A stretch of DNA of 64,000 bases, from NCBI RefSeq assembly GCF_036172515.1, contig NZ_JAXKVW010000010.1, positions 1 through 64,000 of the forward strand, written 5' to 3'. Below the pieces are notes generated by a model. That model made no database searches. It saw only the letters and a list, made by a program, of their open reading frames with translations, and was not told the DNA's origin. Position 1 is the stretch's first letter; each line of letters opens with the position of its first letter. Source of the DNA: Flexistipes sp. Its GTDB lineage: Bacteria > Chrysiogenota > Deferribacteres > Deferribacterales > Flexistipitaceae. Below are positions 190 through 31,184 of the stretch, piece after piece. The translations under genes were made by a program, and so were the position numbers.

Positions 190-218
190 TTTTCACCAAC
201 CTGTTAGGTTGGTGCTAC
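190..218 (+). repeat. REP-like hairpin, copy 1 (divergent stem)
   Basis: A perfect 9-bp stem CACCAACCT/AGGTTGGTG (194-202 with 206-214) has a 3-nt loop and is followed by CTA. The TTTCACC...GGTGCTA edges resemble the other hairpin repeats in the window, but the stem bases differ on both arms. It abuts the broken 5' end of the RAYT remnant. Confidence 0.55.
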
Positions 219-326
219 AGGGCATTATACCCCATTAATAATACAAGATGCTGAAATAGACTGGTATCACCATTTTTTTTACATCACAAATATTTTACCA
301 TTCGAAATATTTTTGATGTAAAAAAC

Positions 327-355
327 TTGACAAGCGATAAACACTAAATTAAAAT
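327..355 (+). promoter_or_regulatory. Promoter of the cytochrome c peroxidase gene
   Basis: TTGACA at 327-332 is a perfect -35 hexamer. It is followed by a 17-nt spacer and TAAAAT at 350-355 as the -10. The predicted transcript would start near 362, about 50 nt before the ATG, and include the inverted repeat at 367-392. A TATAAT-like string slightly further downstream (356-361) is an alternative -10 but has too long a spacer. Confidence 0.6.
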
Positions 356-366
356 TATAATAATTT

Positions 367-392
367 AGGTTACCGATTTTTTTAGGTAACCT
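367..392 (+). promoter_or_regulatory. Leader inverted repeat or operator
   Basis: AGGTTACC (367-374) and GGTAACCT (385-392) are exact reverse complements separated by 10 nt. The repeat lies between the predicted transcription start and the Shine-Dalgarno sequence (AAGGAGG near 403). It could be a transcription-factor operator or an mRNA hairpin near the ribosome site. Nothing in the sequence decides between these. Confidence 0.45.
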
Positions 393-414
393 CAAAAATT
401 TTAAGGAGGTCAAG

Positions 415-1452
415 ATGAAGAAACACAGTATTTTTATTATGCTTGCTTGTGTCCTTACTGCAAGCATAGGGTTTGCTCAAAGTTCTCTTATGGAGCAGGC
501 AAGAGAATATTTTGAGCCGGTTCCAATGGGTGCACCAGAATTAAAAGATAACCCTCTAACTTATGAAAAGATTGAGCTTGGGAAATTATTATATTTTGAC
601 CCAAGGCTCTCCAAAAGTGGATTGATAAGCTGCAATACCTGCCACAATATTGGTCTTGGTGGCGATGATGATCAGGAAGTTTCAACGGGACACGGATGGC
701 AAAAAGGTCCGAGAAATGCACCAACGGTCTTTAACTCTGTTTTTAATGTAGCGCAGTTCTGGGACGGAAGAGCTGAGGATCTAGCCGAGCAAGCCAAAGG
801 CCCTGTACAGGCAAGTGTTGAAATGAACAATACTCCAGAAAGAGTTGTTAAAACACTAAAAAGCATTCCTGAATACGTTGAATATTTCAAAAAAGCGTTC
901 CCGGAGGATTCTGATCCTGTAACATTTGATAATATGGCTGATGCCATTGAAGCATTTGAAGCAACACTCTTAACACCTGGTTCACGTTTTGATAAATATC
1001 TCAAAGGTCAGGAAAACGCATTAAATAAGAAAGAAAAAGAAGGCTTACAGGCCTTTATGAATAATGGCTGCGCAGAATGCCATAAAGGTGTCAATATGGG
1101 AGGACATGATTACTATCCTTTTGGCGTGGTTGAGATGCCTGATGAGGAAATTATACAGAATGATGTGGGCAGGTTTGCGGTCACAGACACCTCCGAAGAT
1201 AAGTATGTATTCAAATCTCCTTCACTCAGAAATATTGCAATTACTGAGCCTTATTTCCACTCAGGCAAGGTATGGAGTTTAAAAGAAGCTGTAAAAATAA
1301 TGGGTTCAGCCCAGTTAGGTATAGAGCTTTCCGAAAATGACGTGGAAGCTATTTTAGCCTTTTTAAAAACAACAACGGGTGTGCAACCTAAGATTGAATA
1401 TCCTATTATGCCACCTTCAACCGAAGATACCCCAAAGCCTGCCTTGGATTAA
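415..1452 (+). CDS. Di-haem cytochrome c peroxidase, periplasmic
   Basis: 345 aa. An N-terminal Sec signal peptide (about residues 1-21, ending GFA-Q) directs export to the periplasm. Two CxxCH haem sites are present, CNTCH at 73-77 and CAECH at 219-223, in the spacing expected for the CcpA/MauG family. WDGRAEDLAEQA and PYFHSGKVWSLKEAV are typical family stretches. Length matches bacterial CCPs, which reduce H2O2 to water with electrons from small c-type cytochromes or quinol. A strong AAGGAGG precedes the ATG, and promoter, leader repeat and terminator make it monocistronic. The flanks are mobile-element debris, so the gene may sit in an accessory spot. Whether it is a classical peroxidase or a MauG-like oxidase cannot be told from sequence alone. 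Confidence 0.93.
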   Translation: MKKHSIFIMLACVLTASIGFAQSSLMEQAREYFEPVPMGAPELKDNPLTYEKIELGKLLYFDPRLSKSGLISCNTCHNIGLGGDDDQEVSTGHGWQKGPRNAPTVFNSVFNVAQFWDGRAEDLAEQAKGPVQASVEMNNTPERVVKTLKSIPEYVEYFKKAFPEDSDPVTFDNMADAIEAFEATLLTPGSRFDKYLKGQENALNKKEKEGLQAFMNNGCAECHKGVNMGGHDYYPFGVVEMPDEEIIQNDVGRFAVTDTSEDKYVFKSPSLRNIAITEPYFHSGKVWSLKEAVKIMGSAQLGIELSENDVEAILAFLKTTTGVQPKIEYPIMPPSTEDTPKPALD

Positions 1453-1482
1453 AAAAAGCCCCCTTATCACGGGGGCTTTTTT
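1451..1482 (+). terminator. Rho-independent terminator after the peroxidase gene
   Basis: Stem AGCCCCC/GGGGGCT (1457-1463 with 1471-1477) has a 7-nt loop. It is flanked by A7 on the left and T6 on the right, so it could work in both directions. It begins at the stop codon of the peroxidase gene. Confidence 0.88.
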
Positions 1483-1571
1483 ATATCAAATATAACTTTA
1501 TCTCCACAAACTGGCGTCACCCCCATTTTATTGCAAAAGATATTGTATGACATGCATTTAGAGTTGAGAAG

Positions 1572-1633
1572 TCCTCCAGGATCGTGTATAGTTATTTTCG
1601 AGAAAAAAGCAACAAATACAACGACCTGGAGGA
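1572..1633 (+). promoter_or_regulatory. Long-range stem that would mask a Shine-Dalgarno site
   Basis: TCCTCCAGG-A-TCGT (1572-1585) pairs with ACGA-CCTGGAGGA (1621-1633) over 13 bp with one bulged A, enclosing about 35 nt. The right arm contains the GGAGGA ribosome site of the small reading frame starting at 1639. Such fold-back structures are known to limit transposase translation from read-through transcripts; applying that here is inference. Confidence 0.45.
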
Positions 1634-1638
1634 ATTTT

Positions 1639-1755
1639 ATGATAAGTGAAACCGTGGAAAATGTGAAGGGAAAAATTAGAAAAATTGTGCACGATCTCAA
1701 TGAACATATTTCAAAGCCTCAGCAAAAAAAGTATTATTTACCTGATAATCATTAA
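1639..1755 (+). pseudogene. Short frame, probable 5' fragment of a lost insertion-sequence gene
   Basis: 38 codons from an ATG with a good ribosome site (CTGGAGGA, 6 nt upstream). The product is charged and helical (ETVENVKGKIRKIVHDLNEH) and ends just before the upstream end of the IS110-type remnant. The ribosome site is buried in a potential stem, and the region is full of mobile-element debris, so I read it as the start of a transposase truncated when the next element arrived. The family is not recognisable and it could be a free small protein. Confidence 0.3.
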
Positions 1756-1850
1756 CAAGTTGAGATTAAGTAGGCACCTCCTTCACTTATGCACATAAAG
1801 TGCTATGCTACTGGTAAGGAACCAAACATAAAAGTTAAAGGAGGTACCCT

Positions 1851-2144
1851 ATGGCACTATACGGAGGTTTTGACTTGCATTCAAGCAATAATTATTTAGC
1901 AATTATTGATGTGTTCCACATATTTACCAGCCTCCGGCTGGTGCTAGATGAAAATGACAAACGTATTCTCAAAAAGAAGCTGGACAACGATCCTGATTTA
2001 ATTATTTCAACATTAAAGCCGTACCAAAATGAGCTTAAAGGTGTCGTTGTTGAATCTACTTTCAATTGGTAATGGCTTATAGATCTCTTGATGGACAATG
2101 ATTTCAAAACACATCTGGCAAACCCTTCCGCTGTTAAAAGATAA
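1851..2144 (+). pseudogene. IS110-family transposase, 5' fragment, disrupted
   Basis: The frame begins with AAAGGAGG and ATG and reads GGFDLHSSNNYLAIID, then VVVESTFNW and WLIDLLMDNDFKTHLANPSAVKR. This is the N-terminal DEDD (RuvC-like) domain of IS110 recombinases, with the first Asp and the VEST Glu present. Three lesions are visible: a hairpin repeat adding 13 codons after residue 20, a TAA at 2070-2072 where the family has Tyr in the NWYW motif, and loss of everything after codon 97. The upstream segment 1756-1850 would correspond to the left end, where IS110 elements encode a bridge RNA; here it is a relic at best. Confidence 0.8.
1911..1947 (+). repeat. REP-like hairpin, copy 2, inside the IS110 transposase
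   Basis: GTGTTCCACATATTTACC begins the unit. Stem ACCAGCC (1926-1932), loop TCC, stem GGCTGGT (1936-1942), then GCTAG. It interrupts the transposase reading frame between IID and ENDKR. Together with the AT after CTAG it adds 39 nt, which keeps the frame open as 13 extra codons. The same unit occurs at 18891, 30911 and 31034 outside any gene, so it is an insertion rather than part of the transposase. Confidence 0.8.
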
Positions 2145-2146
2145 AC

Positions 2147-2174
2147 GTTGAACCTTGAACCATGAACGTTAAAC
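2147..2174 (+). repeat. Degenerate 7-bp tandem tract
   Basis: Four consecutive heptamers: GTTGAAC, CTTGAAC, CATGAAC, GTTAAAC. The tract begins three bases after the broken transposase frame ends. The same word family recurs at 7209, 29918 and 35617. Confidence 0.6.
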
Positions 2175-2189
2175 TAACCCTTCACGATT

Positions 2190-2759
2190 TTATGAAATCG
2201 ACATATTAACATAGTGGGCTATCATTCCCAATGTTGTAAACCTTATTACTCTTGGAACAAGACCAAACAGGATAAATTTATATATTTTCACATTAAACAA
2301 ACCGGCAATCCAACACATGGGCACATATGGTACCGGAGTAAGCGCTCCTATACTCAGACTTATAAGCCCGTATCTGGCATAAATCCTTCTCCATTTATGA
2401 TATTTTGCAGAAGAATTCAGTTTATGCATTCCGTATGATCTGAACATTCGCCCAAAAAAATAACTTAAGAAACTTGCTAAAACACTCCCCAATGAGGCAA
2501 AGAATACGGAATAAAGAAATTCCTTATAAATCAGGACACCGCCGATTACTGCCACATCAGGCCCTATAGGCTGAAAAAGAACATCAGTAAAAAAACTTAT
2601 CAGAAATATGGCAAACAACCCGTAATCTTTTACAAAATCAAGGAGCTCGTGCTCAATTTTGTAGTAATTAAGAAATACTAAAACTGTTAAAAGAAGCATA
2701 AACGAAATTATAAGAGCAAGAAAAACTTTACTGAAGGGTTTTAATACAGGTTTTCTCAC
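2190..2759 (-). CDS. VTT/DedA-like (YqaA-type) inner-membrane protein
   Basis: 189 aa. One membrane segment lies near residues 13-31, then a VTT-type core follows (about 40-185) with FQPIGPDVAVIGGVLI, a basic FFGRMFRSYG loop and a late PVPYVPMCWIAGLF helix, the conserved proline-rich re-entrant motif of the superfamily. DedA/VTT proteins are linked to membrane homeostasis and lipid-carrier flipping. The exact substrate of YqaA-like members is unknown. Its ATG overlaps the stop of the upstream transporter by 4 nt (ATGA), so the two are translationally coupled. Confidence 0.75.
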   Translation of the reverse strand: MRKPVLKPFSKVFLALIISFMLLLTVLVFLNYYKIEHELLDFVKDYGLFAIFLISFFTDVLFQPIGPDVAVIGGVLIYKEFLYSVFFASLGSVLASFLSYFFGRMFRSYGMHKLNSSAKYHKWRRIYARYGLISLSIGALTPVPYVPMCWIAGLFNVKIYKFILFGLVPRVIRFTTLGMIAHYVNMSIS

Positions 2760-4330
2760 AGTATCGCCTGTGCAAGAAAAATTGTAATTATGAGAGCAAA
2801 GGGATAAACCGCAGCATAAGCAACGGAAGGTCTGCCCGAATCACATACTTCGGTGGCCATGGAAAGTGCTGGCGTTGAAGTCATACTGCCGGAAAAGACG
2901 CCAAGGATATCCAGTACATTGTATTTTAACATTTTAAACATGACAAAAGTAAAAGCACTATACGTAATCAATAATATTCCCAATGCAATATAAATTGATG
3001 TAAAGCCCAGCGTATTAATCGATTGCAGAAGATAAGCACCGGCATTTGTACCTATAGTAGCCATAAAAATCAGCTGTCCCAATGTTTTCATCAGACTTGT
3101 AGAATGAGGTGAAAGCTGCCAGACAAGTTTTCCTGTACGCCCTATTCTGCCCAGAACCAAAGCCGTAAGCAAAATACCTCCGACAAAACTTAACTTAAAA
3201 TATCCGAATCCCGGAATATTCAACGGAATAAAACCGATACTCATACCAATTAAAATCCCCATGGAAATAGGCAGAAAATCACCTGCCGGAAAATTAAGAA
3301 GGTTATTGCCGATAAAATTTGTTACCCTTTTCTCAAACTTTTCAGGAACAGTAATGTACAACTTATCTCCCAACATAAGCGTGAGATTAGGTGTCGGGTT
3401 AATGTCAATACCGGCTCTCCTTACCTTTGAGATGCTTGCTCCTACAGCAGTGAGCTCTTTAAGTTCGGATATTTTTTTGCCGACAACTTTTTTTGTTGTA
3501 ACAAGCAGTCTAAGAACCTTAAGGTTGTCATGAAACGTGACGCTGTCACTCACTTCTTCTCCGAGAATTACTTTAACCTTGTCCATTTGGTCTTTTGTAC
3601 CGGTAACCCTCACAATATCTCCGAAATGCATTGTGTGATCCATTTCCGTATCTTCAATCGGATATTCTGATTCGATTCTTTCGATAATTGTGTTGGTCAT
3701 CTCCTGAACTTCGGATTTGGTTATATGCTGGTTTTTGAAATTCTCATTGGTTATTCTGAAGTTTTTTGTCGCAATAGACGGATAACGCTGTCTGACACTT
3801 TCTTCATATCTCCTTCTCTCCTCGCTCATGTCCACCTTCAGAAGGCCGGGAATAATCTTAGGATAAAGTATTGTCAGGACAATACAAAAAGGATATACAA
3901 GACCGAAAACAACGGATATTGAAGGAGAACTGCTTGCCTCCAGACTGGCAGCAAGTGCCGGAGCATTTGTCATAACCCCGGTAAAAAGGCCGGCCTGAAC
4001 ATCCTTTGTAAACCCCAGCATTTTAGAAACAATCATAATTTCCAGGAAAATTGTTCCGACAAGACATGCAGCTATAATGTTAAGTTTTAATCCCTTGTTT
4101 CTAATAGTTTCGAAAAAGCCGGGGCCGGACTGCAAACCGATGGAATAAATAAAAATAGCAAGGCCAAAATATTTAAATTCTTCCGGAAGGCGAACTCCGA
4201 AATGGCCTGCAACAAGCGCCACAATAAGTATTGCTGAAATATCAAGAGAAAAACCTTTGATTTTTATGCTGCCAACAATGTAGCCCAGTGTAATAATCAA
4301 AAACAGTTGAAATATTATCTCTAAATGCAT
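2756..4330 (-). CDS. AspT/YidE/YbjL-type antiporter with central RCK_C domains
   Basis: 524 aa. Two membrane halves (about 1-155 and 350-524) flank a soluble centre (about 190-345) with two TrkA-C (RCK_C) domains. Each half carries the family hallmark, MTNAPALAASLEA in the first and MTSTPALSMATEV in the second, and GLQSGPGFF is also typical. The family includes the aspartate:alanine exchanger AspT, but most members have unknown substrates and the RCK_C pair suggests ligand gating. It lies 8 nt after the TetR gene and overlaps the VTT gene, so it is probably regulated with them. Confidence 0.82.
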   Translation of the reverse strand: MHLEIIFQLFLIITLGYIVGSIKIKGFSLDISAILIVALVAGHFGVRLPEEFKYFGLAIFIYSIGLQSGPGFFETIRNKGLKLNIIAACLVGTIFLEIMIVSKMLGFTKDVQAGLFTGVMTNAPALAASLEASSSPSISVVFGLVYPFCIVLTILYPKIIPGLLKVDMSEERRRYEESVRQRYPSIATKNFRITNENFKNQHITKSEVQEMTNTIIERIESEYPIEDTEMDHTMHFGDIVRVTGTKDQMDKVKVILGEEVSDSVTFHDNLKVLRLLVTTKKVVGKKISELKELTAVGASISKVRRAGIDINPTPNLTLMLGDKLYITVPEKFEKRVTNFIGNNLLNFPAGDFLPISMGILIGMSIGFIPLNIPGFGYFKLSFVGGILLTALVLGRIGRTGKLVWQLSPHSTSLMKTLGQLIFMATIGTNAGAYLLQSINTLGFTSIYIALGILLITYSAFTFVMFKMLKYNVLDILGVFSGSMTSTPALSMATEVCDSGRPSVAYAAVYPFALIITIFLAQAIL

Positions 4331-4338
4331 AAAAATGT

Positions 4339-4917
4339 TTAATTAAAAGCTTTAAAAAACATTCCGGTCAGCTCATCAACATGGCCCATTAACTCCCAGT
4401 GCTGTCCTGAAAACACCCATGTGGAAACTACCTCATCCAATGTTCCGAAATACATCTCCCGGGCAAGATATATATGTAAATCTTTTTTGAACACACCCTT
4501 TTCTATTCCGTCGTTAATCACATTTTCAATTACATTAAAATAATTTTTAAGATGTTTTCTGACCTTCATGCGCATATCTTTGCTGGGCTGCCTCAGTTCG
4601 ATCTGTAAAACGTTGGCAAGATCAGGGTTTTCACTCATTACTTTAAGATGATATCTGATAAGTATACGGAGTTTTTCAACGGTATCGTCAATGCCCTCAA
4701 TTTCCTGTTGGGCTTTATTGACATAATCTTCCAATTTTATCCTGAAAATTGTAACTAAAATGTCTTCCTTGTTACTGAAATAGTTATAAATAGTCCCATC
4801 TGCAACATCAGCTTCATTTGAAATATCCTTGATTTTGGCGTTGTGATATCCCTTCTGCCCTATGACTTTTACGGCGGCCTTTAAAATAACATCAAACTTA
4901 GGTGTTTTATCTTCCAT
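4339..4917 (-). CDS. TetR/AcrR-family transcriptional regulator
   Basis: 192 aa from the ATG at 4917 (MEDKTPKFDVILKAA). An in-frame ATG at 4965 lies inside proC and would add an unlikely tail. The N-terminal helix-turn-helix (about residues 10-55) contains IKDISNEADVADGTIYNYF and NKEDIL, the standard TetR signature. The C-terminal half is a variable ligand-binding and dimerisation domain whose effector cannot be read from sequence. It overlaps the end of proC by 11 nt and precedes the AspT-like transporter by 8 nt, making the transporter a plausible target. Confidence 0.88.
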   Translation of the reverse strand: MEDKTPKFDVILKAAVKVIGQKGYHNAKIKDISNEADVADGTIYNYFSNKEDILVTIFRIKLEDYVNKAQQEIEGIDDTVEKLRILIRYHLKVMSENPDLANVLQIELRQPSKDMRMKVRKHLKNYFNVIENVINDGIEKGVFKKDLHIYLAREMYFGTLDEVVSTWVFSGQHWELMGHVDELTGMFFKAFN

Positions 4918-5734
4918 TTTTCTTTCCCAGTTCTTTTGACCTAAGGGTGGCATTTTCCACAGCATTGATCAGAGTAGTTCTTAATGCACCCTGCTCAAGG
5001 GTATGTATGCCCGCTATTGCAGTTCCGCCTGGAGATGTAACCATATCCTTTAGTCTTCCGGGATGCATTCCCGTCTCTATCTGAAGTTTTGCGGCACCCA
5101 TTACAGTCTGGGCTGCCAGCTTCATTGAAACATTTCTTGAAAGCCCCATTTTAACACCGGCATCACTGAGAGCCTCTATCATCATAAAAATATAAGCAGG
5201 GCCGCTTCCGGACAAACCTGTAACAGCATCCATCTGAGTTTCATCAACAACCACCACTACGCCAACTGCGCTGAATATTTCCCGTGCAAGCTTCAAATCA
5301 TCTTCTGAAACATTCTCACCGGGGCATATTGCAGTGGCACCTTCCATAATTAAAGCCGGGGTGTTCGGCATTGCTCTGATTATTTTCAGATCATTGCTGG
5401 TAAGGCTGTCAATGTACTCTGTTGAAATACCGGCAGCTATTGAGATTACCAGCTTACTTGAGTCAAGTTTCTCATCAATTTCGGATAATATTCTGCTCAT
5501 TATCTGCGGCTTTACAGCCAGTACAATTATATCGCTATCTTCTACAACTTTTTTGTTATCTTTAAATACCGTATTAATACCGTATTCAGATTTTAAACTT
5601 TCAAGCTTCTCTGGATCGATATCACTTGCAAAAACGGACTTTTCCTCCACAAGGCCGGCTTTTAATATACCTTTGATTAAAACCGAAGCCATATTCCCGG
5701 AACCTATGAAACCTATTTTTTTACCGCTGAACAT
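4907..5734 (-). CDS. proC: Pyrroline-5-carboxylate reductase
   Basis: 275 aa, full length. It reduces 1-pyrroline-5-carboxylate to L-proline with NAD(P)H, the last step of proline synthesis. The Rossmann motif GFIGSGNMASVLIKG is at the N-terminus, AVKPQIM and RAMPNTPALI follow, and the conserved C-terminal stretch includes SGSGPAYIF and TSPGGTAIAGIH. A strong AAAGGAG precedes the ATG. The start overlaps the end of the upstream hydrolase gene by 14 nt. Confidence 0.95.
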   Translation of the reverse strand: MFSGKKIGFIGSGNMASVLIKGILKAGLVEEKSVFASDIDPEKLESLKSEYGINTVFKDNKKVVEDSDIIVLAVKPQIMSRILSEIDEKLDSSKLVISIAAGISTEYIDSLTSNDLKIIRAMPNTPALIMEGATAICPGENVSEDDLKLAREIFSAVGVVVVVDETQMDAVTGLSGSGPAYIFMMIEALSDAGVKMGLSRNVSMKLAAQTVMGAAKLQIETGMHPGRLKDMVTSPGGTAIAGIHTLEQGALRTTLINAVENATLRSKELGKKNGR

Positions 5735-6674
5735 TTGACTTCTCCTTTATCCAATTACTGATAGCTTCAAAGACAAATTGCTGCTTTGAGTTTTTATTGA
5801 GGGTAAGTACATGCATATCTTCTTTGCCCTCAACCAGAATTTTTTTCTTATCTTTTGCCTTGATTTTTTCAAAATATCTTAAAACGCCTTTGTAGTCAAC
5901 AACTTCATCTTCTATAGCCTGCACCAGGAGAACGGGCGAGTCATAGTCGTGTAATTTCTTTTTCACATATTTCTGTGTCAAATAAAGCTGATACATGCCT
6001 TTTAAAGGCCAGACATCGTAAAAGTAACCTGCATAATTTGCATCAAAATCTGATTTTTTGGAAATACTATTAAATAATTGCATTAAAGGGATAAACTGAA
6101 ACCTCCAGTCCTTGATTTTAAAAGCAGGATTCAACATTATTATCCCTGAAACTTCGTTATAGTAACCCACAGCAGAAGCCAGAAGACCACCTAGGGACTG
6201 CCCCGCCACATAAACCTGATTGCAACTGTTTTTCAATGCGAAATAACCGAATTTCAGAGATTCATACCAGTCTGCATAACTGAATTCGTTAAGATTTTCA
6301 GGAGTGGTACCGCTTCCGGGCAGCCGAACAGAATAAGTAGTGTATCCTAAACTGTTCAGATATGCTGAAAGTTCGTGCATTTCATAAGGGGAGCCTGTAA
6401 AACCGTGTATCAAAAGGATTCCGACAGAATTATCGGTTCCTTCAGTATAAAGAGGAAGATTCTCATCCAACCTCACACCTTCGGCATAACTTCTTTTAAG
6501 ATCAAGCTGGTACAATTCCTCGGAACTCACGTTATCCAAAGCAACAAAAGGTTTTAGTTTTTTATCCATATCAGTAACCAAACCAACAGCCAGAAATATT
6601 AAAAGTAAACCGATAATCCAGGGGAGTATAAACCACCTGAAAATCGTCTTTTTTTTGTTCGTATAAATATTCAA
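5721..6674 (-). CDS. Membrane-anchored alpha/beta hydrolase, carboxylesterase/lysophospholipase-like
   Basis: 317 aa. A TTG start at 6674 overlaps the previous stop (TTGA), and this is the only reasonable start. One membrane anchor lies at about residues 12-32. The alpha/beta hydrolase fold shows the oxyanion motif LLIHGFTGSP, the nucleophile elbow AGQSLGGLLA, an acidic residue in AIEDEVVDY and a late histidine in KEDMHVLTL. It probably cleaves acyl esters such as lysophospholipid or monoglyceride at the membrane; substrate unknown. It is coupled to the dtxR-like gene upstream and proC downstream. Confidence 0.75.
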   Translation of the reverse strand: MNIYTNKKKTIFRWFILPWIIGLLLIFLAVGLVTDMDKKLKPFVALDNVSSEELYQLDLKRSYAEGVRLDENLPLYTEGTDNSVGILLIHGFTGSPYEMHELSAYLNSLGYTTYSVRLPGSGTTPENLNEFSYADWYESLKFGYFALKNSCNQVYVAGQSLGGLLASAVGYYNEVSGIIMLNPAFKIKDWRFQFIPLMQLFNSISKKSDFDANYAGYFYDVWPLKGMYQLYLTQKYVKKKLHDYDSPVLLVQAIEDEVVDYKGVLRYFEKIKAKDKKKILVEGKEDMHVLTLNKNSKQQFVFEAISNWIKEKSNVQR

Positions 6675-7108
6675 TTTTCTTCACATACCTGCCTGAATTT
6701 TTCAATATTCACACAAGTAATATCACTTTGCATTATAAACTCAAGGAAACAGGATAGTTTATCAAAAACTTTTTTGTCTATAACATGCTCAATTTTACAG
6801 GCATTTTCTTCGGCCAGCTCTGAATCCACCTGCAGTACATGCTCAAAAAATTCTTTTATGGTTTCATGCCTTTTGTATACTTCACGGGCATATTTCATCC
6901 CTTTATCCGTCAGCGTTACCTCACTGTATTTGTTATAATTTATATATCCCCCTTCGGAAAGCAGCTGCAATGCATTGGTGACAGATGATTTTTTCACACT
7001 AAGTTTTTCGGAAATATCTTTAGATCTGGCGGATTTTCCTTCATTTTGTAAAATGAAAATAGTCTCCAGATAATCTTCCATGCTTGTTGAGAGTTTTCTG
7101 TTTTGCAT
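6671..7108 (-). CDS. DtxR/MntR-family metal-dependent repressor
   Basis: 145 aa. A winged HTH (residues 5-70) begins TSMEDYLETIFILQ and includes DISEKLSVKKSSVTNALQLL, followed by a dimerisation and metal-binding region with RHETIKEFFEHVL and E-x2-A-CKIEHVID, which supplies Cys, Glu and His ligands as in DtxR/MntR. There is no C-terminal SH3-like domain, as in MntR. Such proteins repress metal uptake genes when Fe(II) or Mn(II) is plentiful. AGGAG precedes the ATG, and a palindrome resembling DtxR-family operators lies just upstream, suggesting autoregulation. Confidence 0.87.
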   Translation of the reverse strand: MQNRKLSTSMEDYLETIFILQNEGKSARSKDISEKLSVKKSSVTNALQLLSEGGYINYNKYSEVTLTDKGMKYAREVYKRHETIKEFFEHVLQVDSELAEENACKIEHVIDKKVFDKLSCFLEFIMQSDITCVNIEKFRQVCEEN

Positions 7109-7126
7109 AATATCTCCTGAAATATT

Positions 7127-7142: not shown

Positions 7143-7208
7143 TCATTTTAATTTCAAAAACAATGAAATTTCACTTAAAAACCGTAATGCGGGATGTGTG
7201 TGAGACAA

Positions 7209-7309: not shown

Positions 7310-7312
7310 ATA

Positions 7313-7351: not shown

Positions 7352-7356
7352 CCCTC

Positions 7357-11139: not shown

Positions 11140-11170
11140 TTTCACTCCTTATTTACAACATAATATAATT

Positions 11171-11371
11171 CAAGTTTCGCACTTAGTTCCGTATAATATT
11201 TGCCTGGGGCGAATATATATGCCCTTTGCCCGTCATTGCGAGGAGTGCTAACGACGAAGCAATCTCCTTTACGGCATTTGAGATTACTTCGGGACTCCGT
11301 CCCTCGTAATGACGTCGTTTGTCCGTCATTGGGCGAGCAAAGACGTGTAAAAAGTGCAAGTGCGAAACTTG
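11171..11371. mobile_element. MITE-like palindromic element, copy 1
   Basis: Terminal inverted repeats CAAGTTTCGCACTT (11171-11184) and its complement (11358-11371) bound 201 bp. The core contains GTCATTGCGAGGAGTG and GACGAAGCAATCTC, a word set also in the copies at 15090 and 61003. The right end stops two bases before the pfkA stop codon. No coding capacity and no clear target duplication are seen. Confidence 0.75.
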
Positions 11372-11373
11372 AT

Positions 11374-12336
11374 TCATTTACTTAACACCTCTGCAATTTC
11401 CAAAAGTTTTTTATCCATTTTACGTTTGTTGTTAAGAACCTCTCCCAGAAGAACAAGTTCTATTTTTCTCTCCTGCAAAGCGGTCATCACCCCACTTTCG
11501 CCCTTAAGCAGCGAATCCACTGCAGAAGCACCCATTCTGGTTGCAAGAATCCTGTCAAAATGTGTGGGGCTGCCACCCCTCTGGATATGACCCAATACGG
11601 TAATTCTCGTTTCAAAACCGCCTATCATATCGAATGTTTTTCCGAAATCGCCGGCAGAACCCACTCCTTCTGCCAAAATTATAACACTTCGGGTTTTTCC
11701 CTCTTCGTATCTCTCTTTTATTTTCTTGATTATATTTTCAATTTTAAAAGGTACTTCCGGGATAAGAGCTGCTTCCGCACCTCCGCTTATTGCAGACATA
11801 AGGGCGAGATAGCCGCAGTTTCGGCCCATAACTTCTATTATAAATGTTCTGTCATGTGAACTTGCCGTATCGTTAATAGTATCTATGCACCACAAAATGG
11901 TGTTTAAAGCAGTATCCACTCCGATAGACATATCTGTTCCGTATATGTCGTTATCTATTGAACCGGGAATACCTATCACCGGAAAATGATATTTATCATG
12001 TATGACCTTGGCACCAGCCAGAGAACCATCTCCCCCTATAACAATAAGTCCTTCTATACCCTGATTTTTAAGATTCTCCATTGCTTTCAGCTGTCCTTCT
12101 TCTTCTTTGAATTCAGGAGCCCGGGCACTTCTCAGAAAAGTCCCCCCTCTCTGTATCATATTGGCTACACTTTTGCTTTCGAGTTTAATAAACTGATTCT
12201 CCATCAATCCACTGTAACCCTGCTCTATACCGTATACTTCCATCTCATAGTTCAAAGCAGTTCTTACGACACTTCTAATAGCGGCATTCATTCCCGGGCA
12301 ATCACCACCGCTTGTCATTACTGCAATTCTTTTCAC
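11374..12336 (-). CDS. pfkA: ATP-dependent 6-phosphofructokinase
   Basis: 320 aa, the exact size of bacterial PfkA. It phosphorylates fructose 6-phosphate in glycolysis. AVMTSGGDCPGMNAAIRS binds nucleotide, and IGGDGSLAGA with Gly in the GGDGS position marks ATP rather than pyrophosphate use. GIPGSIDNDI is the catalytic loop (usually PGTIDND, here Ser for Thr), and MGRNCGYLAL and GHIQRGGSPTHFDR complete the active site. It starts 1 nt after the queC stop. Its stop abuts a MITE-like element, which did not alter the C-terminus length. Confidence 0.95.
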   Translation of the reverse strand: MKRIAVMTSGGDCPGMNAAIRSVVRTALNYEMEVYGIEQGYSGLMENQFIKLESKSVANMIQRGGTFLRSARAPEFKEEEGQLKAMENLKNQGIEGLIVIGGDGSLAGAKVIHDKYHFPVIGIPGSIDNDIYGTDMSIGVDTALNTILWCIDTINDTASSHDRTFIIEVMGRNCGYLALMSAISGGAEAALIPEVPFKIENIIKKIKERYEEGKTRSVIILAEGVGSAGDFGKTFDMIGGFETRITVLGHIQRGGSPTHFDRILATRMGASAVDSLLKGESGVMTALQERKIELVLLGEVLNNKRKMDKKLLEIAEVLSK

Positions 12337-18719: not shown

Positions 18720-18761
18720 GTTTCAGAATACCAGCAAAAGTTAAATTGGTCAAATTGAAAG

Positions 18762-18793
18762 AATTGGCACCCTCCCATTTTTTAGAGCTATGA
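18762..18793 (+). repeat. Short dispersed repeat (TTGGCACC...AGAGCTAT), copy B
   Basis: TTGGCACC, a short C-rich block, six T, then AGAGCTATGACAA. This matches the reverse strand of 7313-7351 block by block. It lies about 43 bp upstream of the kinase start codon, so it may also sit in that gene's promoter region. Confidence 0.4.
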
Positions 18794-18890
18794 CAATACG
18801 CAGATATTGTTAGTACATAGATAGAGATCCCTCGGCTTCGCTCGAGGTGACAATTACATGCATACTGTCTATCAGCGATAGCTAAATAGG

Positions 18891-18929
18891 GTGTTACACA
18901 TATTTACCAGTCTAAAAGACTGGCGCTAG
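18891..18929 (+). repeat. REP-like hairpin, copy 3
   Basis: GTGTTACACATATTTA leads into stem CCAGTCT (18907-18913), loop AAA, stem AGACTGG (18917-18923), then CGCTAG. Compared with copy 2 the stem has a C-to-T change on the left arm answered by G-to-A on the right, so pairing is kept. Confidence 0.75.
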
Positions 18930-19159
18930 CCGCAGGCATCCTTTCGAACAAAGTGAGAAATCTCTGCCATATGAAACGACATAACGAATAAATATACAAC
19001 TGTGCTTAATATTGGGATATCTTCATGCGTGAAAATCCCGATATTTAGATAAAGTATTGTCAAATAGCACAAGTACAAAAATTTTGGGAGGTTGCTAATG
19101 AAAGAATAGTTGAATTATTATATTTATTAGATTATTTTGCACCTTTTAAGGAGGTATCG

Positions 19160-22848: not shown

Positions 22849-22863
22849 AATACCCTCCTAATC

Positions 22864-25704: not shown

Positions 25705-25714
25705 AGAGACCTCC

Positions 25715-25894
25715 TTAATCCCTTAGAGATTTATAATACTTCTTAAAATGTTCCGTCTCTCTGTAGAGATTTTCATTTACAATTTCACCGTCTTTTGCCA
25801 TAGCCGGCTTCACAATGGCAGCCACCCCCAGAGTAGCCCCGGTTACAGCCATCCCTTTCAAAAATTTTCTTCTGTCAAAAAACTCATTTTTCAT
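25715..25894 (-). CDS. Formate dehydrogenase region Tat-target small protein (FdhX-like)
   Basis: 59 aa. It begins [20 protein letters not shown], a clear twin-arginine signal, followed by a short mature part of about 26 residues ending [11 protein letters not shown]. An AGGAGG ribosome site precedes the ATG. Proteins of this shape are known immediately upstream of fdhA in many bacteria and appear to be a small accessory or electron-transfer-associated subunit of unresolved function. It lies between the TorD-like chaperone (24-nt gap) and fdhA (10-nt gap). Confidence 0.85.
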
Positions 25895-25918
25895 AACAGA
25901 CCTCCTGCTGATATAATC

Positions 25919-26524
25919 TTAAGTTAAAGACTTAATACCTTCCAAAAATTTCATATCCATTTCCAGGTAATCCCTGGAAAACAAACCGGCTGTTGCATAA
26001 AAGTAAGCCTTTTCGTTTGTTTTCAATATTTCAGCAAGCCTTTCAAAAGACGGGTATAAAAACTTCTTCAAAAAATTTTGCTGCACATCGGCACAATCAC
26101 CGCTGTCTATTAAGTATAACATAAGATCGATCATAAAGAGTACCGAATCCTCTGTATCCTTATAATCCGTATCCTTAACTACTTTCAAATCTTCAAGGAA
26201 ATCCCTTATTTCCACCAAAGGCTCCCCAAAGTTTTTACCCTCGAGGAGAAAAGACGCATTAAGGTTGGACAGACCTTCACCGAAGGGATTTTCGAAAAGC
26301 TCATAATACTCATTTTTTATGCTTTCTAAATCAGAATTATCCAAAGCTTCTTTCATAAACGAAACGGTTTTATCAAATTCTCTGTTAATGCTGTCCTCAT
26401 TAAGATTTGCAACAAAAGCCCGCCAGGCTTTGATATCTTCTTCCTTTGGGGGTTCCCAGAAAAAACTCTTTATCAGATTATAAACCCCGTTTCTCATACT
26501 GTTCAAAGACTCTATATCCATCAA
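25919..26524 (-). CDS. TorD-family chaperone for the formate dehydrogenase
   Basis: 201 aa all-helical protein. The FENPFGEGL stretch in the middle with preceding YYELF is the TorD/DmsD family pattern, and ASFLLEGKNFGEPL follows. Such proteins hold the Tat precursor of a molybdoenzyme until cofactor insertion is finished. Overlapping the upstream ferredoxin gene by 4 nt and lying just before the two Tat-signal genes, its client is almost certainly FdhA. Confidence 0.82.
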   Translation of the reverse strand: MMDIESLNSMRNGVYNLIKSFFWEPPKEEDIKAWRAFVANLNEDSINREFDKTVSFMKEALDNSDLESIKNEYYELFENPFGEGLSNLNASFLLEGKNFGEPLVEIRDFLEDLKVVKDTDYKDTEDSVLFMIDLMLYLIDSGDCADVQQNFLKKFLYPSFERLAEILKTNEKAYFYATAGLFSRDYLEMDMKFLEGIKSLT

Positions 26525-28173
26525 CCCACCTCTAACTGTTTTTTAACCCGGCATTTGTCGCAATAATCCAACAGCTCCAGTTCATCCTCAAACCTGCCGG
26601 CAGATTTTAATTTATTTCTAACCTGCTCAAGGCTTTTTCTGTTACCGAAAACTTTGCCGCACTCAGCACAGGCAACAGGCTCATCTTTGGCAAGTATCCT
26701 CGGTTGAAAGAATTCTTCATCAAGAAGCAGCCCGGCTACCAGCTCCAATGCATTTTCGGGACAGACGTTCAGACATATCCCGCACTGGATACAGTTTGCA
26801 GCAATATGGGAAAGTGTATAGTTAGAGGAATCGGCCATAAGGGAGCCTATCTTGCAATGGTTAAGGCAGGCCAAACAAAGACTGCACTTCTTCTCGTCAC
26901 AGACCACACTGCCAAATGTATTCAGTATACTTTCCTGCAGAAGTACTCTCTTGTTTTCAGATTTTTTATAAATATCCCTGAATATGGGTGTAAGAAATTT
27001 GCGCTTGTTTTTATATTCCGGAAATGTAAAGTCAGAAGTAAAAAGTTTATCCATCTCATCACTGAATTCCGGATTATGCCCTTCTGATACAAGCTTTCTG
27101 CCGGAGAAAGCATACGCTGTTAATGCATTGGTAAACTGTATATGTTTATACAAATTTGACTCTTTGAAAACATCCTGAAAAACGTGAACGTTTGTAATGC
27201 CCAGTCTTAACAGCAAAAGAAAATGAAAACTGTTCAGAATATAAACATTCGGGATTATTATCACCAAAACATTATCATCAATCTTATTGTTATAATTTTT
27301 GTAAAAGTTAACTGTATCGCTTTCCTGCACAAAAACAACGTGGGTATAATTTATTTCTTGACTTTGCAGCTTTTCGTAAATTAAATCCGCAAAACTTTCA
27401 TCACTGACATCCTCCGACTGCATGGCTCCTGTGGGACAGACGGAGATACATTGACCGCAGTCTTCACATGCAAAATGATCCACTTCTATTCCGTTTGAAC
27501 TTTTACGCACTGCTTTATATTCACAGGATTCTATACAGCGCTGGCAGCCCAAATCAAGCCTGCCGTTATACTGGCAAATCTCTCTGTTATGACTCACAGA
27601 TTGCTCTATTTGAAATGTACCTATGTTGGCAAACAATTCTTCTTTTTCATCTATATGATAAATACCGTTAATTTCAGAATATTCGTTTATTTTTTTATTA
27701 TCATCCAGAAAAAGTACCTGCGGAGCGTCAAAAATGTGATTTTCGTACCGGTAAAGATCAATGGCATTTTCCGGACAAGCATCAACACATTTGCCGCAGT
27801 AATCGCATTTGGTAAAATCAATACTGATTTCCTCATCTATTGCATCAAGCGGACAGGCAATAACACATTCGCCGCACAGTGTACATAAATCTTCGTTCAG
27901 AGGATATCTGCATTCGCATTTCACCTGAATTTCGGGGAATGAGCCTGAAAGTTCATGATTTACTGCCGAATAAAATTCACCGCCGCTTTTGGTTTTTCCG
28001 GTTACAATGGGGATAATATCAAGGACACCGCTGTAAACAGTCGTAAACTTTTCCAGCATTTCCTCATTTTCAGCCATAACGGCAACTTTAGGTGGAATCT
28101 CCAGCGTTGTCGCTTTTCTTTCAGCCGGAAAATGAATGTAATTAAAATTTTTAAACAGCGTTTTCGGAAACAT
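26521..28173 (-). CDS. Multi-cluster 4Fe-4S ferredoxin protein of the formate dehydrogenase operon
   Basis: 550 aa from ATG 28173, preferred over 28209 because AGGGA lies upstream and the extended -10 (28198-28206) would start transcription between the two codons. Ferredoxin sites include CTLCGECVIACP, CDYCGKCVDACP, CEDCGQCISVCP, CSLCLACLNHC, CIQCGICLNVCP and a CQRCIESC site. The tail (CAECGKVFGNRKSLEQV ... LDYCDKCRVKK) resembles a zinc finger rather than a cluster site. No signal peptide or membrane segment: a cytosolic electron carrier, possibly linking formate oxidation or cofactor maturation to other pathways. First gene of the operon. Confidence 0.75.
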   Translation of the reverse strand: MFPKTLFKNFNYIHFPAERKATTLEIPPKVAVMAENEEMLEKFTTVYSGVLDIIPIVTGKTKSGGEFYSAVNHELSGSFPEIQVKCECRYPLNEDLCTLCGECVIACPLDAIDEEISIDFTKCDYCGKCVDACPENAIDLYRYENHIFDAPQVLFLDDNKKINEYSEINGIYHIDEKEELFANIGTFQIEQSVSHNREICQYNGRLDLGCQRCIESCEYKAVRKSSNGIEVDHFACEDCGQCISVCPTGAMQSEDVSDESFADLIYEKLQSQEINYTHVVFVQESDTVNFYKNYNNKIDDNVLVIIIPNVYILNSFHFLLLLRLGITNVHVFQDVFKESNLYKHIQFTNALTAYAFSGRKLVSEGHNPEFSDEMDKLFTSDFTFPEYKNKRKFLTPIFRDIYKKSENKRVLLQESILNTFGSVVCDEKKCSLCLACLNHCKIGSLMADSSNYTLSHIAANCIQCGICLNVCPENALELVAGLLLDEEFFQPRILAKDEPVACAECGKVFGNRKSLEQVRNKLKSAGRFEDELELLDYCDKCRVKKQLEVG

Positions 28174-28197
28174 CCCCACATCCCTGAAAAATTGCAG

Positions 28198-28252
28198 ATT
28201 ATACCACATTTATTTTTCGTATTATCTGTTATTAGCTGACTTACCAGTAAGT
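28198..28252 (-). promoter_or_regulatory. Formate dehydrogenase operon promoter with upstream palindrome
   Basis: On the minus strand TGGTATAAT (28206-28198) is a perfect extended -10 box 25 bp before the ATG at 28173. The -35 region is weak (GATAAT at 17 nt), typical of extended -10 or activated promoters. An interrupted palindrome ACTTAC-CA-GTAAGT at 28239-28252 lies about 36 bp upstream of the -10, a usual place for an activator. Confidence 0.5.
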
Positions 28253-28433
28253 GTGATCATGATAATCCAAAAAACTTCCTTATATTTTAATTATAAGACC
28301 TTTTTTTATTTTGTCAAACGGAATATAAAGTTTTTTAGATATATTCGAAATATAAAAACAATATTTTATCAGATACTTAAAAAAATAGTTACTAATAATA
28401 ACCTATAATAACAACGCATACTGCGGCCAAAGC

Positions 28434-28457
28434 AAAACGATGTTTCATAAAACATCG
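28434..28457 (-). terminator. Terminator overlapping the end of the DNA polymerase IV gene
   Basis: On the minus strand stem CGATGTTT, loop TATG, stem AAACATCG is followed by TTTT. The left arm contains the last codons and the stop codon of the polymerase gene. Confidence 0.7.
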
Positions 28458-29650
28458 ACTTTTCTCAAACCTTTTGGTTTCCATGCTGGGGATATCGTCC
28501 GCGCTCCTTTTCGCCTGCAATTCAGGATGGAAGCAAAAGAAACGGTAAAACCGCCGTATTTTTCATTTATAGCATCCATTGCTTTATATACATTTTCCAT
28601 ATCCCTTCCATCGAAAACAGAACACAGCTCCTGGGTATCATGTATCAAATTTGACAGAGTGACGCCTATAAGCCTGATTCCATTTTCGAGAAAATTTTCA
28701 GGAAACATTGTTGTTATATATCTGCTTACATCATAAATATGATGAGTGGCACAGGTGAAATAATTAACGGTATGTCTTTTACTGAGGGTACTCATATCGG
28801 GAAACCTTATACTGAGGGTAACCGTCTTTCCCGAAACATTATGACTTCTGGCTCTTCCGGAAACCATTTCACAAAGCTGAAGGAGATACGCATTAAACAT
28901 CCTGGCATCCCTTACATCTTCGGGAAAAGTCATACTGTGACCAATCGATTTCACAGCCTCATCTTCAACGCGGATGCCCTCCCTATCATCGCCACGTGCC
29001 ATCATATGGTAATAATAGCCGTTTTTGCCGAATATGTTACAAAGCTTATCTCTGCCGAGCTTCCTCATATCGGCAGTATTGAAAACACCCATATTGTAAA
29101 AACGCTCCGAAAGTTTCTTGCCGATTCCCCAGATATCTTCAAGCTTAAATGAATCCAGAAAATCAATAGTCTCACCATCACTTATCACAAGGAATCCGTC
29201 AGGCTTATTTATCCCGCTTGCCATTTTCGCCACAAGCTTACTTTTACCTGCACCGACGGAACAGGTGATACCGAAACGCTTTTTCACATAATTTTTAATA
29301 TCCGAAATAACATCTGCTGCTTTTTCACCCGGAATCTGCAAAAAAGCTTCATCTACAGAATATACTTCCACTTTATCGGAGAGTGTTTTGAGAAAATCCA
29401 TGATTTGGGAGGAAATATATGTGTATTTTCTGTTATTGCCCTCCACAATTGTGATAAAAGGGCACATTCGTTTTGCTTCATATTTACTCATCCCCGTTTT
29501 TACACCATATTTTCTTGCAATATAGCAGGCCGTTGTTACAACTGTTCGCTCCTTTGCCCCTATTACCGCCACAGGCTTGTCTTTCAAATGGGGTTTACTC
29601 GCTTTCTCCACCGAAGCAAAGAAAGCATCCATATCCACACAAAGAATCAT
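28445..29650 (-). CDS. dinB: DNA polymerase IV (Y-family translesion polymerase)
   Basis: 401 aa from ATG 29650, which has GGGAGGAG upstream; a longer frame adds nine residues read from the neighbouring gene. Catalytic acids are D6/D8 in CVDMDAFFASVE and D100-E101 in YSVDEAF. TTACYIARKYGVKTGM and the HhH block IWGIGKKLSERFYNMGV are diagnostic. It copies damaged DNA with low fidelity. The end (LRKVDVL) is where a sliding-clamp peptide would lie but is not an obvious one. It overlaps an 82-aa partner gene by 4 nt. LexA lies nearby but no SOS box was seen before this operon. Confidence 0.93.
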   Translation of the reverse strand: MILCVDMDAFFASVEKASKPHLKDKPVAVIGAKERTVVTTACYIARKYGVKTGMSKYEAKRMCPFITIVEGNNRKYTYISSQIMDFLKTLSDKVEVYSVDEAFLQIPGEKAADVISDIKNYVKKRFGITCSVGAGKSKLVAKMASGINKPDGFLVISDGETIDFLDSFKLEDIWGIGKKLSERFYNMGVFNTADMRKLGRDKLCNIFGKNGYYYHMMARGDDREGIRVEDEAVKSIGHSMTFPEDVRDARMFNAYLLQLCEMVSGRARSHNVSGKTVTLSIRFPDMSTLSKRHTVNYFTCATHHIYDVSRYITTMFPENFLENGIRLIGVTLSNLIHDTQELCSVFDGRDMENVYKAMDAINEKYGGFTVSFASILNCRRKGARTISPAWKPKGLRKVDVL

Positions 29651-29895
29651 AACTCCTCCCTGGCTATCAAAAACCATTTCATGGAAAGAGAATTTAAGGC
29701 TATCTCATAAGCATCAAAACCATCTGTAAATGTGTATTTATAAACAAGGTAATGCCCTTTTCTTTCAGTCCAGCTGTAAAAAATCTCTTTTACAGAGACC
29801 TTCTCTCCATTGCTCTCAATCCATACGGGCAGTGGATTTCCATATTTGAAAACCACTCCTGCCCTGCTGATTTCCACATCCGATGTAAAAATCAT
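29647..29895 (-). CDS. Small protein coupled to DNA polymerase IV
   Basis: 82 aa. The central part reads IFYSWTERKGHYLVYKYTF and the end NSLSMKWFLIAREEL, a beta-rich domain with conserved Trp positions resembling the DUF6504-like proteins found beside or fused to Y-family polymerases; that match is from memory and tentative. AGAGGAG lies upstream at a rather long distance. The stop overlaps the dinB start by 4 nt, so both are made from one message. Confidence 0.65.
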   Translation of the reverse strand: MIFTSDVEISRAGVVFKYGNPLPVWIESNGEKVSVKEIFYSWTERKGHYLVYKYTFTDGFDAYEIALNSLSMKWFLIAREEL

Positions 29896-29917
29896 AATAA
29901 AAAAACTCCTCTGTAAA

Positions 29918-29966
29918 GTTCAACGTTCAAGGTTCAAAACGTAAGACGTAAAACGTGAGACGCACT
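29918..29966 (+). repeat. Degenerate 7-bp tandem tract
   Basis: GTTCAAC, GTTCAAG, GTTCAAA, ACGTAAG, ACGTAAA, ACGTGAG, ACGCACT in strict 7-bp phase. It lies just upstream of the ribosome site of the 82-aa gene, so it occupies that operon's promoter region. Confidence 0.6.
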
Positions 29967-30003
29967 GACTCCTCCACTCTTCCAAACTCTACCTTAACAC
30001 TTA

Positions 30004-30055
30004 GCACCCTGTTAAATCCGGCTACGTCGGGCTGTAAAGCAGTATTCAACAGTGC
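30004..30055. repeat. Hairpin of the CCCTGTTAAAT family
   Basis: GCACCCTGTTAAAT (30004-30017) pairs imperfectly with AGTATTCAACAGTGC (30041-30055), around an inner CCG...CGG hairpin. The same outer stem occurs as an exact repeat inside MITE-like copy 2 (15128-15174). It lies 3' of lexA and could help terminate that transcript. Confidence 0.5.
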
Positions 30056-30085
30056 CTAACATTGCGAATAATACTCGTAATTCTA

Positions 30086-30673
30086 TTAAAAATCTTTTAT
30101 AACAAATTTAAGTTTCCCTATAACTTCAAAAGAATCTACGGAAGTAACCCTGATAATTTTATATCTTTTATTAGCCGGGATAAGGAGAATGTATCCTTCT
30201 TTCCTGGCAAATGTTTTCAAAGTAACCTCATCATTTATACGAAAAGCCCCTGTTTCTCCTTCATTTATATCCGGCTGTTTTTTTATTACAGCTGTATCAC
30301 CTTCAAATATCCCTTTATCTATCATACTGTCGCCCTCAACTTTGAGACAGAACAGGTTTTCCGTATTTTTAAATTTCTCAGCAAGGTCAACATAACCTTC
30401 GATATTTTCTTCAGAAAAAACGGGAGTACCGGCCTTAATTCTTCCCAGCAAAGGAACTCCCTTATGATATATAAGCTCAATCCCTCTGGCTTTGGATGAA
30501 TCTTTTTTTATAACACCGGCTTCGACCAGTCTGTCCAGCATCTTCTTCACACTTGATATGGAAGCAATTCCCATACCTTTTGCAATATCTCTCACCGACG
30601 GAGGATATCCGTATTCGTCCAGAAAATTTTTTATAAACAGAAAAAATTCCTTTTGCCTGCCGGTTAATCCCAT
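30086..30673 (-). CDS. lexA: LexA repressor of the SOS response
   Basis: 195 aa. The N-terminal winged helix (1-65) starts LTGRQKEFFLFIKNFLDEYGYPPSVRDIA. The self-cleavage site is A81-G82 in RIKAGTPV, and the Ser-Lys dyad is S116 (EGDSM) and K153 (VTLKTF), spaced as in E. coli LexA. DNA damage with RecA should trigger cleavage. GAGG precedes the ATG by 6 nt. The upstream region has a strong promoter overlapped by a GAAC-N4-GTT box, consistent with autoregulation. Confidence 0.95.
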   Translation of the reverse strand: MGLTGRQKEFFLFIKNFLDEYGYPPSVRDIAKGMGIASISSVKKMLDRLVEAGVIKKDSSKARGIELIYHKGVPLLGRIKAGTPVFSEENIEGYVDLAEKFKNTENLFCLKVEGDSMIDKGIFEGDTAVIKKQPDINEGETGAFRINDEVTLKTFARKEGYILLIPANKRYKIIRVTSVDSFEVIGKLKFVIKDF

Positions 30674-30695
30674 AAGCTGCCTCGTATTTTAAATG

Positions 30696-30743
30696 GTAAC
30701 ATTTGTTCTCCTGAGTATAGATATCAACCCATGCCTTTGTCAA
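30696..30743 (-). promoter_or_regulatory. lexA promoter and SOS-box-like operator
   Basis: On the minus strand TTGACA (30743-30738), an 18-nt spacer, and TATACT (30719-30714) form the promoter. GAACAAATGTTAC at 30708-30696 overlaps the expected start point. It resembles the GAAC-N4-GTTC LexA box of Gram-positive and several other phyla, with one change in the second half-site, rather than the CTGT-N8-ACAG box of E. coli. Confidence 0.65.
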
Positions 30744-30873
30744 CAAAAAAAGAAGTTTACTGGCATCACCCCAAAAATCATATAAAAGTATTGTTTTACA
30801 TATACTTAGCTAACATGACACTGATTTCAATGTAATTTGCACAAATGAAGCAGCCGATGTCGAATGTGTTCCT

Positions 30874-30910
30874 CTAGCATCGATCAAAGACCGATAAATT
30901 TGTGTATACA
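30874..30910 (-). repeat. REP-like hairpin, copy 4, reverse orientation
   Basis: CTAGC then stem ATCGATC, loop AAA, stem GACCGAT and TAAATTTGTGTATACA: the reverse complement layout of copy 2 with a different stem and one mismatch. It appears inserted into copy 5, since GTGTTCC before it and ACATATTTACC after it are the two parts of one forward unit. Confidence 0.7.
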
Positions 30911-30945
30911 ACATATTTACCAGTCTTTCGGCTGGTGATAGAGAA
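30911..30945 (+). repeat. REP-like hairpin, copy 5
   Basis: ACATATTTACCAGTC, loop TTTC, GGCTGGT, then GATAG. The stem uses one G-T pair. Its expected leader GTGTTCC lies at 30866-30872, on the other side of copy 4. Confidence 0.7.
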
Positions 30946-31033
30946 ACGTACTGCCGATTAGCGGTCACACCCTGTGTTGGAATGTAAAATGGATAAATAT
31001 TTGCAAATAAAAACAATTATGAGAGGAGGGGGA

Positions 31034-31072
31034 TGTGTTCCACATATTTACCAGCCTTACGGCTGGTGCTAG
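31034..31072 (+). repeat. REP-like hairpin, copy 6
   Basis: TGTGTTCCACATATTT, stem ACCAGCC (31050-31056), loop TTAC, stem GGCTGGT (31061-31067), GCTAG. It is almost identical to copy 2 inside the IS110 gene apart from the loop. Confidence 0.8.
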
Positions 31073-31147
31073 TAGACGGTTAGCGGCAGTAGTTTCGAGT
31101 TTCGGCTGCGAAATGCGTGCAAATTACATTGAAAAATATTTGCACTG

Positions 31148-31184
31148 CTAGCATCGGTCGAAGACCGATAAATTTGTGTACACA
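31148..31184 (-). repeat. REP-like hairpin, copy 7, reverse orientation
   Basis: CTAGC, stem ATCGGTC (31153-31159), loop GAA, stem GACCGAT (31163-31169), AAATTTGTGTACACA. Facing copy 6 across about 75 bp, it makes an inverted pair. The stem ATCGGTC/GACCGAT differs from ACCAGCC/GGCTGGT at several places, always with matching changes. Confidence 0.8.

Follow-up and report, generated by a model that had tools for sequence, protein, structure and literature searches.

We analyzed a 64,000-nucleotide (nt) window of Flexistipes sp. DNA (contig C10 of the 2.47-Mb, 31-contig genome G000) that carries members of a family of short, hairpin-forming DNA units resembling repetitive extragenic palindromic (REP) elements, and compared it with the F. 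sinusarabici type strain (G001), the closest relative compared, whose orthologous DNA is about 92-96% identical. A complete unit reads 5'-TAGC-[hairpin 1]-AAAT-[hairpin 2]-Y-3' over 37-41 nt, and hairpin 2 distinguishes class A (ATGTG-GAA-CACAT), class B (TTGTG-TA-CACAA) and class C (ATTGAC-GAA-GTCAAT). All seven hairpins that a preliminary description had placed between positions 190 and 31,184 of the window were found in the sequence. The units and the elements hosting them, among them a RAYT transposase remnant and two miniature inverted-repeat transposable elements (MITEs), are arranged as follows:

1..186, minus strand: RAYT remnant (294-amino-acid family, subclass 2.1-like), carrying an internal deletion at the 5' end of its gene and truncated where the contig ends
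190..217, minus strand: truncated class A unit, GTAGC-ACCAACCT-AAC-AGGTTGGT, in which the end of the RAYT element takes the place of hairpin 2
1851..2141, plus strand: fragment of an IS110-family transposase gene carrying a unit; truncated, with a TAC-to-TAA change that gives a stop
1908..1946, minus strand: class A unit of 39 nt, a precise in-frame insertion (13 codons) in the IS110 transposase gene
18765..19098, no strand assigned: MITE M3, ends TGGCACCCTCCC..., absent from G001
18870..18899, plus strand: degenerate left partner, TATC-AGC-GATA-GCTAAATA, of a head-to-head pair inside M3
18891..18928, minus strand: class A unit (CCAGTCT/AGACTGG) forming the other member of this pair
30760..31206, no strand assigned: MITE M1 (447 bp), ends CTGGCATCACCCC / GGGGTGACTTCAG, absent at the orthologous G001 site
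30861..30941, minus strand: MITE site B, class A unit whose hairpin 2 holds a nested class B unit
30874..30912, plus strand: class B unit (CTAGCATCGATC..GACCGATAAATTTGTGTATACAAC) lying within that class A unit
31032..31071, minus strand: single class A unit at MITE site A; five other MITE copies are empty there
31149..31186, plus strand: single class B unit at MITE site D; eight other MITE copies are empty there

The hairpin at 194 represents the truncated unit, which no longer has hairpin 2. Four of the seven hairpins sit in M1 and one in M3; with four of them in a single MITE, the seven are not independent. M3 is bordered by a target duplication, TGAAAGAAT (18756-18764 and 19099-19107), and G001 holds the exact empty site. 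M1, whose inverted ends can also be given as CTGGCATCACCCC/CTGAAGTCACCCC, lies between 13-bp direct repeats, AAAAAGAAGTTTA, at 30747-30759 and 31207-31219. It is a MITE by its CTGRMRTCACCCC ends, by duplications of about 8-13 bp in several copies and by the lack of a transposase gene.

Run against the whole genome, the covariance-model search that the preliminary description had proposed returned 143 matches at E<=1, far beyond the seven copies; together with the unit length, this number agrees with REPs as palindromes of 20-40 bp in usually >100 copies. Its matches in the window lie at 180-218 (+), 1911-1947 (+), 18891-18929 (+), 30874-30909 (-), 30904-30941 (+), 31035-31072 (+) and 31148-31183 (-). 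A tight motif with <=3 mismatches gave 59 genome matches, as compared to 0 for the reversed control, and the outer motif alone (ATTTA-N13-20-TGCTAG, stem ignored) gave 64 matches, as compared to 7. Since a broad hairpin scan under loose rules yielded chance-level counts only, our claims rest on the tight motif or the covariance model. Other Flexistipes genomes carry the family as well (87 and 33 matches). Across 60 relatives, the covariance model found matches in only 3; a second pattern, applied to 46 genomes of the order, was positive in 3, all Flexistipes, and none was found in the remaining 43. As far as tested, the family is confined to the genus Flexistipes. An exact 24-mer, sought in viral contigs, was not found there.

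Two-hairpin architecture and compensatory stem changes

Read on the strand that begins with the tag, all seven hairpins share the layout TAGC-A-stem-loop-stem-T-AAAT. The single hairpin described previously corresponds to hairpin 1 and was correctly recognized as such a structure, but it constitutes only half of the unit, hairpin 2 on the ATTTA side having been missed. Folding of the unit as DNA gave ....(((((((...)))))))....(((((...)))))., with z of about -3.1 to -4.7; the single-stranded unit is thus predicted to fold as two adjacent hairpins, each with a 4-nt 5' foot (TAGC and AAAT). When the units were tested for the GT[AG]G foot of REPs, TAGC was present in 110 of 143. The base before TAG is C in 104 of these 143 units, G in 18, A in 13 and T in 8. 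The earlier view of dispersed, REP-like hairpins with a tag beside the foot is borne out, the tag being xTAG, where x is mostly C and sometimes G (GTAG). In single insertions whose flanks are unique, the base preceding TAG is variable; the end proper to the element is therefore TAG rather than CTAG, and the first base of a CTAG or GTAG tag belongs to the target flank.

It had also been proposed that changes in one arm of the stem are answered in the other. Indeed, in 27 distinct sequences gathered by the outer motif only, with no stem requirement, 168 of 189 positions are Watson-Crick paired, as compared to 136 +/- 5 after re-dealing the arms (maximum 155 in 1000 re-deals). In an alignment of hairpin 1 (A1), two-sided changes occur in six of seven pairs, and the covariation score is 0.545, versus 0.223 for shuffled and <=0.131 for slid alignments; as A1 was gathered with a stem filter, it is less strict evidence, and the re-deal test on the outer-motif set is the fairer one. 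A second alignment (A2), of 19 chosen unit types with 12 pairs over both hairpins, has 92.8% of cells paired, two-sided changes in 9 of the 12 pairs and a covariation score of 0.463 (0.177 shuffled, <=0.129 slid), with hairpin 2 alone being less regular (85.7% of cells paired). The compensated stem characteristic of REPs is present in all three sets. In addition to the stems listed before (CCAGCC, CCAGTCT, TCGGTC and CCAACCT), the family includes TCCGCC, TTCGC, CCGGCC, TCGGCC and GCTAT, and G-T intermediates such as CCAGTC..GGCTGG exist. Part of the stem variation divides subfamilies rather than representing single mutations.

Empty and filled insertion sites

Comparison of empty and filled sites shows units inserted singly and precisely, without convincing target duplication, and stepwise into each other. 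In G001, the IS110 transposase gene is intact (Pfam PF01548, PF02371) and its insertion site uninterrupted (G001:C1:465051-465291), while the window copy has gained 39 nt and a second copy on contig C3 has gained 76 nt, comprising two nested units. With the Pfam domain unbroken in the empty G001 gene, the polarity at this site reads as empty to filled. The MITE sites form similar series: site A is empty in 5 contexts, holds one unit in 7 and two nested units in 1 (0/+40/+78 nt); site B is empty in 8, with one unit in 6 and two in 3 (0/+40-41/+78 nt); and site D is empty in 8, with one unit in 3, two in 1 and a larger nest in 1 (0/+38/+76/+118 nt). Taken together, the MITE sites run from no unit through one and two to 3-4 units. 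Among the copies of repeat M4, one is empty and others hold a pair (0/+78 nt).

Inverted class B units occupy hairpin 2 of class A (GTTCCAC|ATATTTA), class C units lie within class B, and class A units within hairpin 2 of class C. Inverted insertion of class B into hairpin 2 of class A gives a head-to-head pair, and all 40 close inverted pairs are head-to-head with their TAG ends outward; 36 are clear class A plus class B pairs, and the other four appear by eye to be degenerate forms of the same. As read from empty sites, the targets are C|A at IS110, at sites A and B and in unit-in-unit insertions, G|A at M4 and C|G at site D, and in single insertions with unique flanks the following base is mostly A.

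Genome-wide, about 118 of the 143 units have multi-copy flanks, so the unit has spread mainly as a passenger; on the TAG side there are 39 flank contexts, 25 of them unique. A comparison of 165 kb of contig C1 with G001 showed that the two species differ at most REP-bearing sites, mostly by whole MITEs, and share one old unit. As judged from these flanks and sites, most copies multiply as passengers of DDE-type MITEs.

A class A unit (TAGCACCAGCCAGAGGCTGGTAAATATGTGGTACACATT) occupies the same place in a multi-copy element of F. sinusarabici, in three G001 stretches. Opposite window positions 30757-31347, at the M1 site, G001 has an unrelated stretch of about 2 kb resembling a transposase gene; the intergenic region at this site is a repeated insertion target. 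Just beyond the right target duplication of M1, positions 31232-31296 form a perfect 9-bp tandem repeat (GGTATTATG, 7.2 copies). At 1508-1755, an CTGGCGTCACCCCC end resembling the M1 ends is followed by a short open reading frame and is present once in the genome. It is possibly the end of the lost parent insertion sequence (IS) of M1; being single-copy, it was rejected as the autonomous IS for M1, and the parent IS was not found. Positions 11170-11380 and MITE M2 (TCAAGTTTCGCACTT ends) contain GTCATTGCGAGGAG..CGACGAAGCAATCTC repeats, inside one REP-carrying MITE family; we take this repeat type to be one that occurs in many unrelated bacteria.

Possible mobilization, candidate enzymes and related repeats

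We consider it reasonably probable that the family represents a mobile, REP-like unit of about 40 nt with two hairpins, which inserts singly and precisely, nests, rides as a passenger in MITEs and would be mobilized in trans by a Y1 enzyme. A RAYT-like Y1 (HUH) transposase would cut the unit, folded as a single strand, at its TAG foot and its 3' end, and the excised single-stranded unit would be pasted at C|A; the enzyme might be the 215-amino-acid RAYT encoded at C25:921-1619, or may since have been lost. Such action on a folded strand would account for conservation of the fold despite drift in the stem sequence. TnpA-REP enzymes cut CT or CA, and the choice of CA is explained by T2 and G4 of GTAG (PMC8266576); the T and G are both retained in the units' TAG. 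The layout, with a tag at the hairpin foot of a folded single strand, is that of REP DNA handled by Y1 enzymes. More tentatively, the 39-nt dumbbell might be a minimal two-ended single-strand transposable unit, with head-to-head REP heterodimers arising by insertion of a singlet into hairpin 2 of another.

Several points weigh against this proposal. Site D (C|G) and M4 (G|A) break the C|A rule, which is thus a preference at most. At sites A, B and D, empty and filled copies differ by 1-2 bases beside the unit, so that the exact boundary and the repair step are uncertain by 1-2 nt; the altered bases may reflect mutation or be part of the reaction. Unit mobility is read from genome comparison rather than from a living population. 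Moreover, contrary to what the preliminary description led one to look for, units flank none of the intact Y1 genes detected in G000 or G001, and the cognate RAYT typical of REPs is therefore missing from this set. A third Flexistipes genome, only 88% complete, has 33 units and no confident Y1 gene.

A 294-amino-acid Y1 protein occurs in several copies (C4, C14 and C18 of G000; G001:C1:617763 and 1008754). With its NHFH/WG/YIDLNP motifs and GGGGACAG left flank, it appears to fit subclass 2.1 (RAYT group 1, 'TIRYT'), for which no REP association was found (PMC6006769). The RAYT remnant in the window (also delimited as 1-168), which abuts the truncated unit where the contig ends, is a copy of this protein with an internal deletion; both the remnant and the 294-amino-acid copies resemble TIRYT. 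No units were found beside the intact copies on C4, C14 and C18 and in G001. The proposed link between the hairpins and this remnant does not hold, and we rejected the remnant as partner on account of its subclass 2.1 type, its GGGGACAG flank and the lack of units at intact copies. The 215-amino-acid RAYT, also located in the G001:C1:2043402 region, has an HUH motif and alone among the Y1 proteins carries WQ, the REP-recognition motif. It is flanked by different hairpins, CTCACACTT..AAGTGTGAG (C25 stretch 823-1646), and was for this reason rejected for now as a proven partner, remaining a candidate. Hairpins similar to CTCACACTT..AAGTGTGAG also lie beside some of its relatives, from Thermodesulfovibrio and Nealsonbacteria, which suggests a separate REP-RAYT pair that may have spread across phyla.

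It is unlikely that the unit is mobile but moved by a different agent, such as a DDE or serine/tyrosine recombinase or replication template switching at hairpins. The foot tag, an ssDNA-type fold kept despite drift and insertion at C|A all match TnpA-REP biology (PMC8266576, PMC6006769), and template switching would not yield identical ends each time, although the absence of a partner gene bearing the same hairpins, the genome with units but no confident Y1 gene and the lack of a convincing target duplication would be compatible with such an agent. Somewhat less probable still is an origin of the hairpins as ordinary MITE parts that spread only with MITEs, with site differences due to deletion or gene conversion. 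While the multi-copy flanks of about 118 of 143 units, the recent insertion of both window MITEs with target duplications and the prevalence of whole-MITE insertions among sites polymorphic between the two species are in line with this origin, the unit also occurs in MITEs unrelated to one another, within IS110 and with about 25 unique flanks; of three copies of the IS110 site, one is empty and the others have gained 39 and 76 nt, which provides one empty/filled case in non-MITE DNA, and units within units and insertions of exactly one unit are left unexplained by any MITE. REPs elsewhere affect mRNA ends, and hairpins that are stable and in many cases intergenic could be kept for a role in RNA (as terminators or mRNA stabilizers), with compensation reflecting selection on the transcript; this is very improbable, as no T-run follows the hairpins, both orientations are used and units interrupt a coding sequence and each other, and a structured RNA was rejected as the identity of the unit upon an Rfam search that gave no match.

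As a mobile two-hairpin unit, the Flexistipes family works like REP/BIME (bacterial interspersed mosaic element) DNA, but full membership fails on the cognate RAYT; the new element is the record of single-unit, nested insertion. Like GTAG-type REPs (Di Nocera et al. 2013, PMC3733652), it has a short hairpin with a foot tag at one end, >100 copies, head-to-head dimers of two different elements and some copies inside genes. Unlike them, it has an xTAG tag whose first base comes from the flank, another covarying hairpin within the unit, no RAYT flanked by units, single-unit insertions with empty sites and a host from another phylum. The text of that paper, searched for Flexistipes or Deferribacter, contained neither. 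The 40 head-to-head pairs with fixed spacing correspond to BIMEs, in which REPs alternate with conserved spacers. REPINs of Pseudomonas fluorescens (Bertels and Rainey 2011, PMC3116915) are likewise inverted REP pairs and mobile miniature DNA; there, near-identical pairs folding as one hairpin are the proposed moving unit and singlets are defunct remnants, whereas the Flexistipes pairs join two different classes (A and B) and a single unit inserts, which sets them apart from REPINs. The Marinomonas TnpA-REP / RAYT group 3 REPtron (PMC8266576) also has a short, perfect, tagged hairpin, with tag positions selecting CA or CT cutting, but its enzyme has been shown, while for the Flexistipes units no cognate enzyme was found. 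As in IS200/IS605 elements and their miniature derivatives, there are two hairpins, both preceded by a short 5' single strand that might serve as guide, and no target duplication; unlike in those, the unit is only about 40 nt long, its hairpins are adjacent and, instead of a fixed target tetranucleotide, a weak C|A or N|A preference is seen.

We found no published record of nested REP insertions in a search that left subscription journals mostly uncovered, and priority is thus not established. The moving unit of REP DNA and the origin of REP pairs are unsettled questions, and the preference for REP heterodimers has no obvious explanation (PMC3733652). As the same sites occur empty, with one unit and nested, both the moving unit and the origin of pairs become readable from sequence, and both can be tested at the bench with a 39-nt substrate. 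The present analysis contributes a REP-like family from Flexistipes (Deferribacterota), documents the multiplication of REPs as passengers in DDE MITEs and provides a rare step-by-step record of repeat spread and pair formation.

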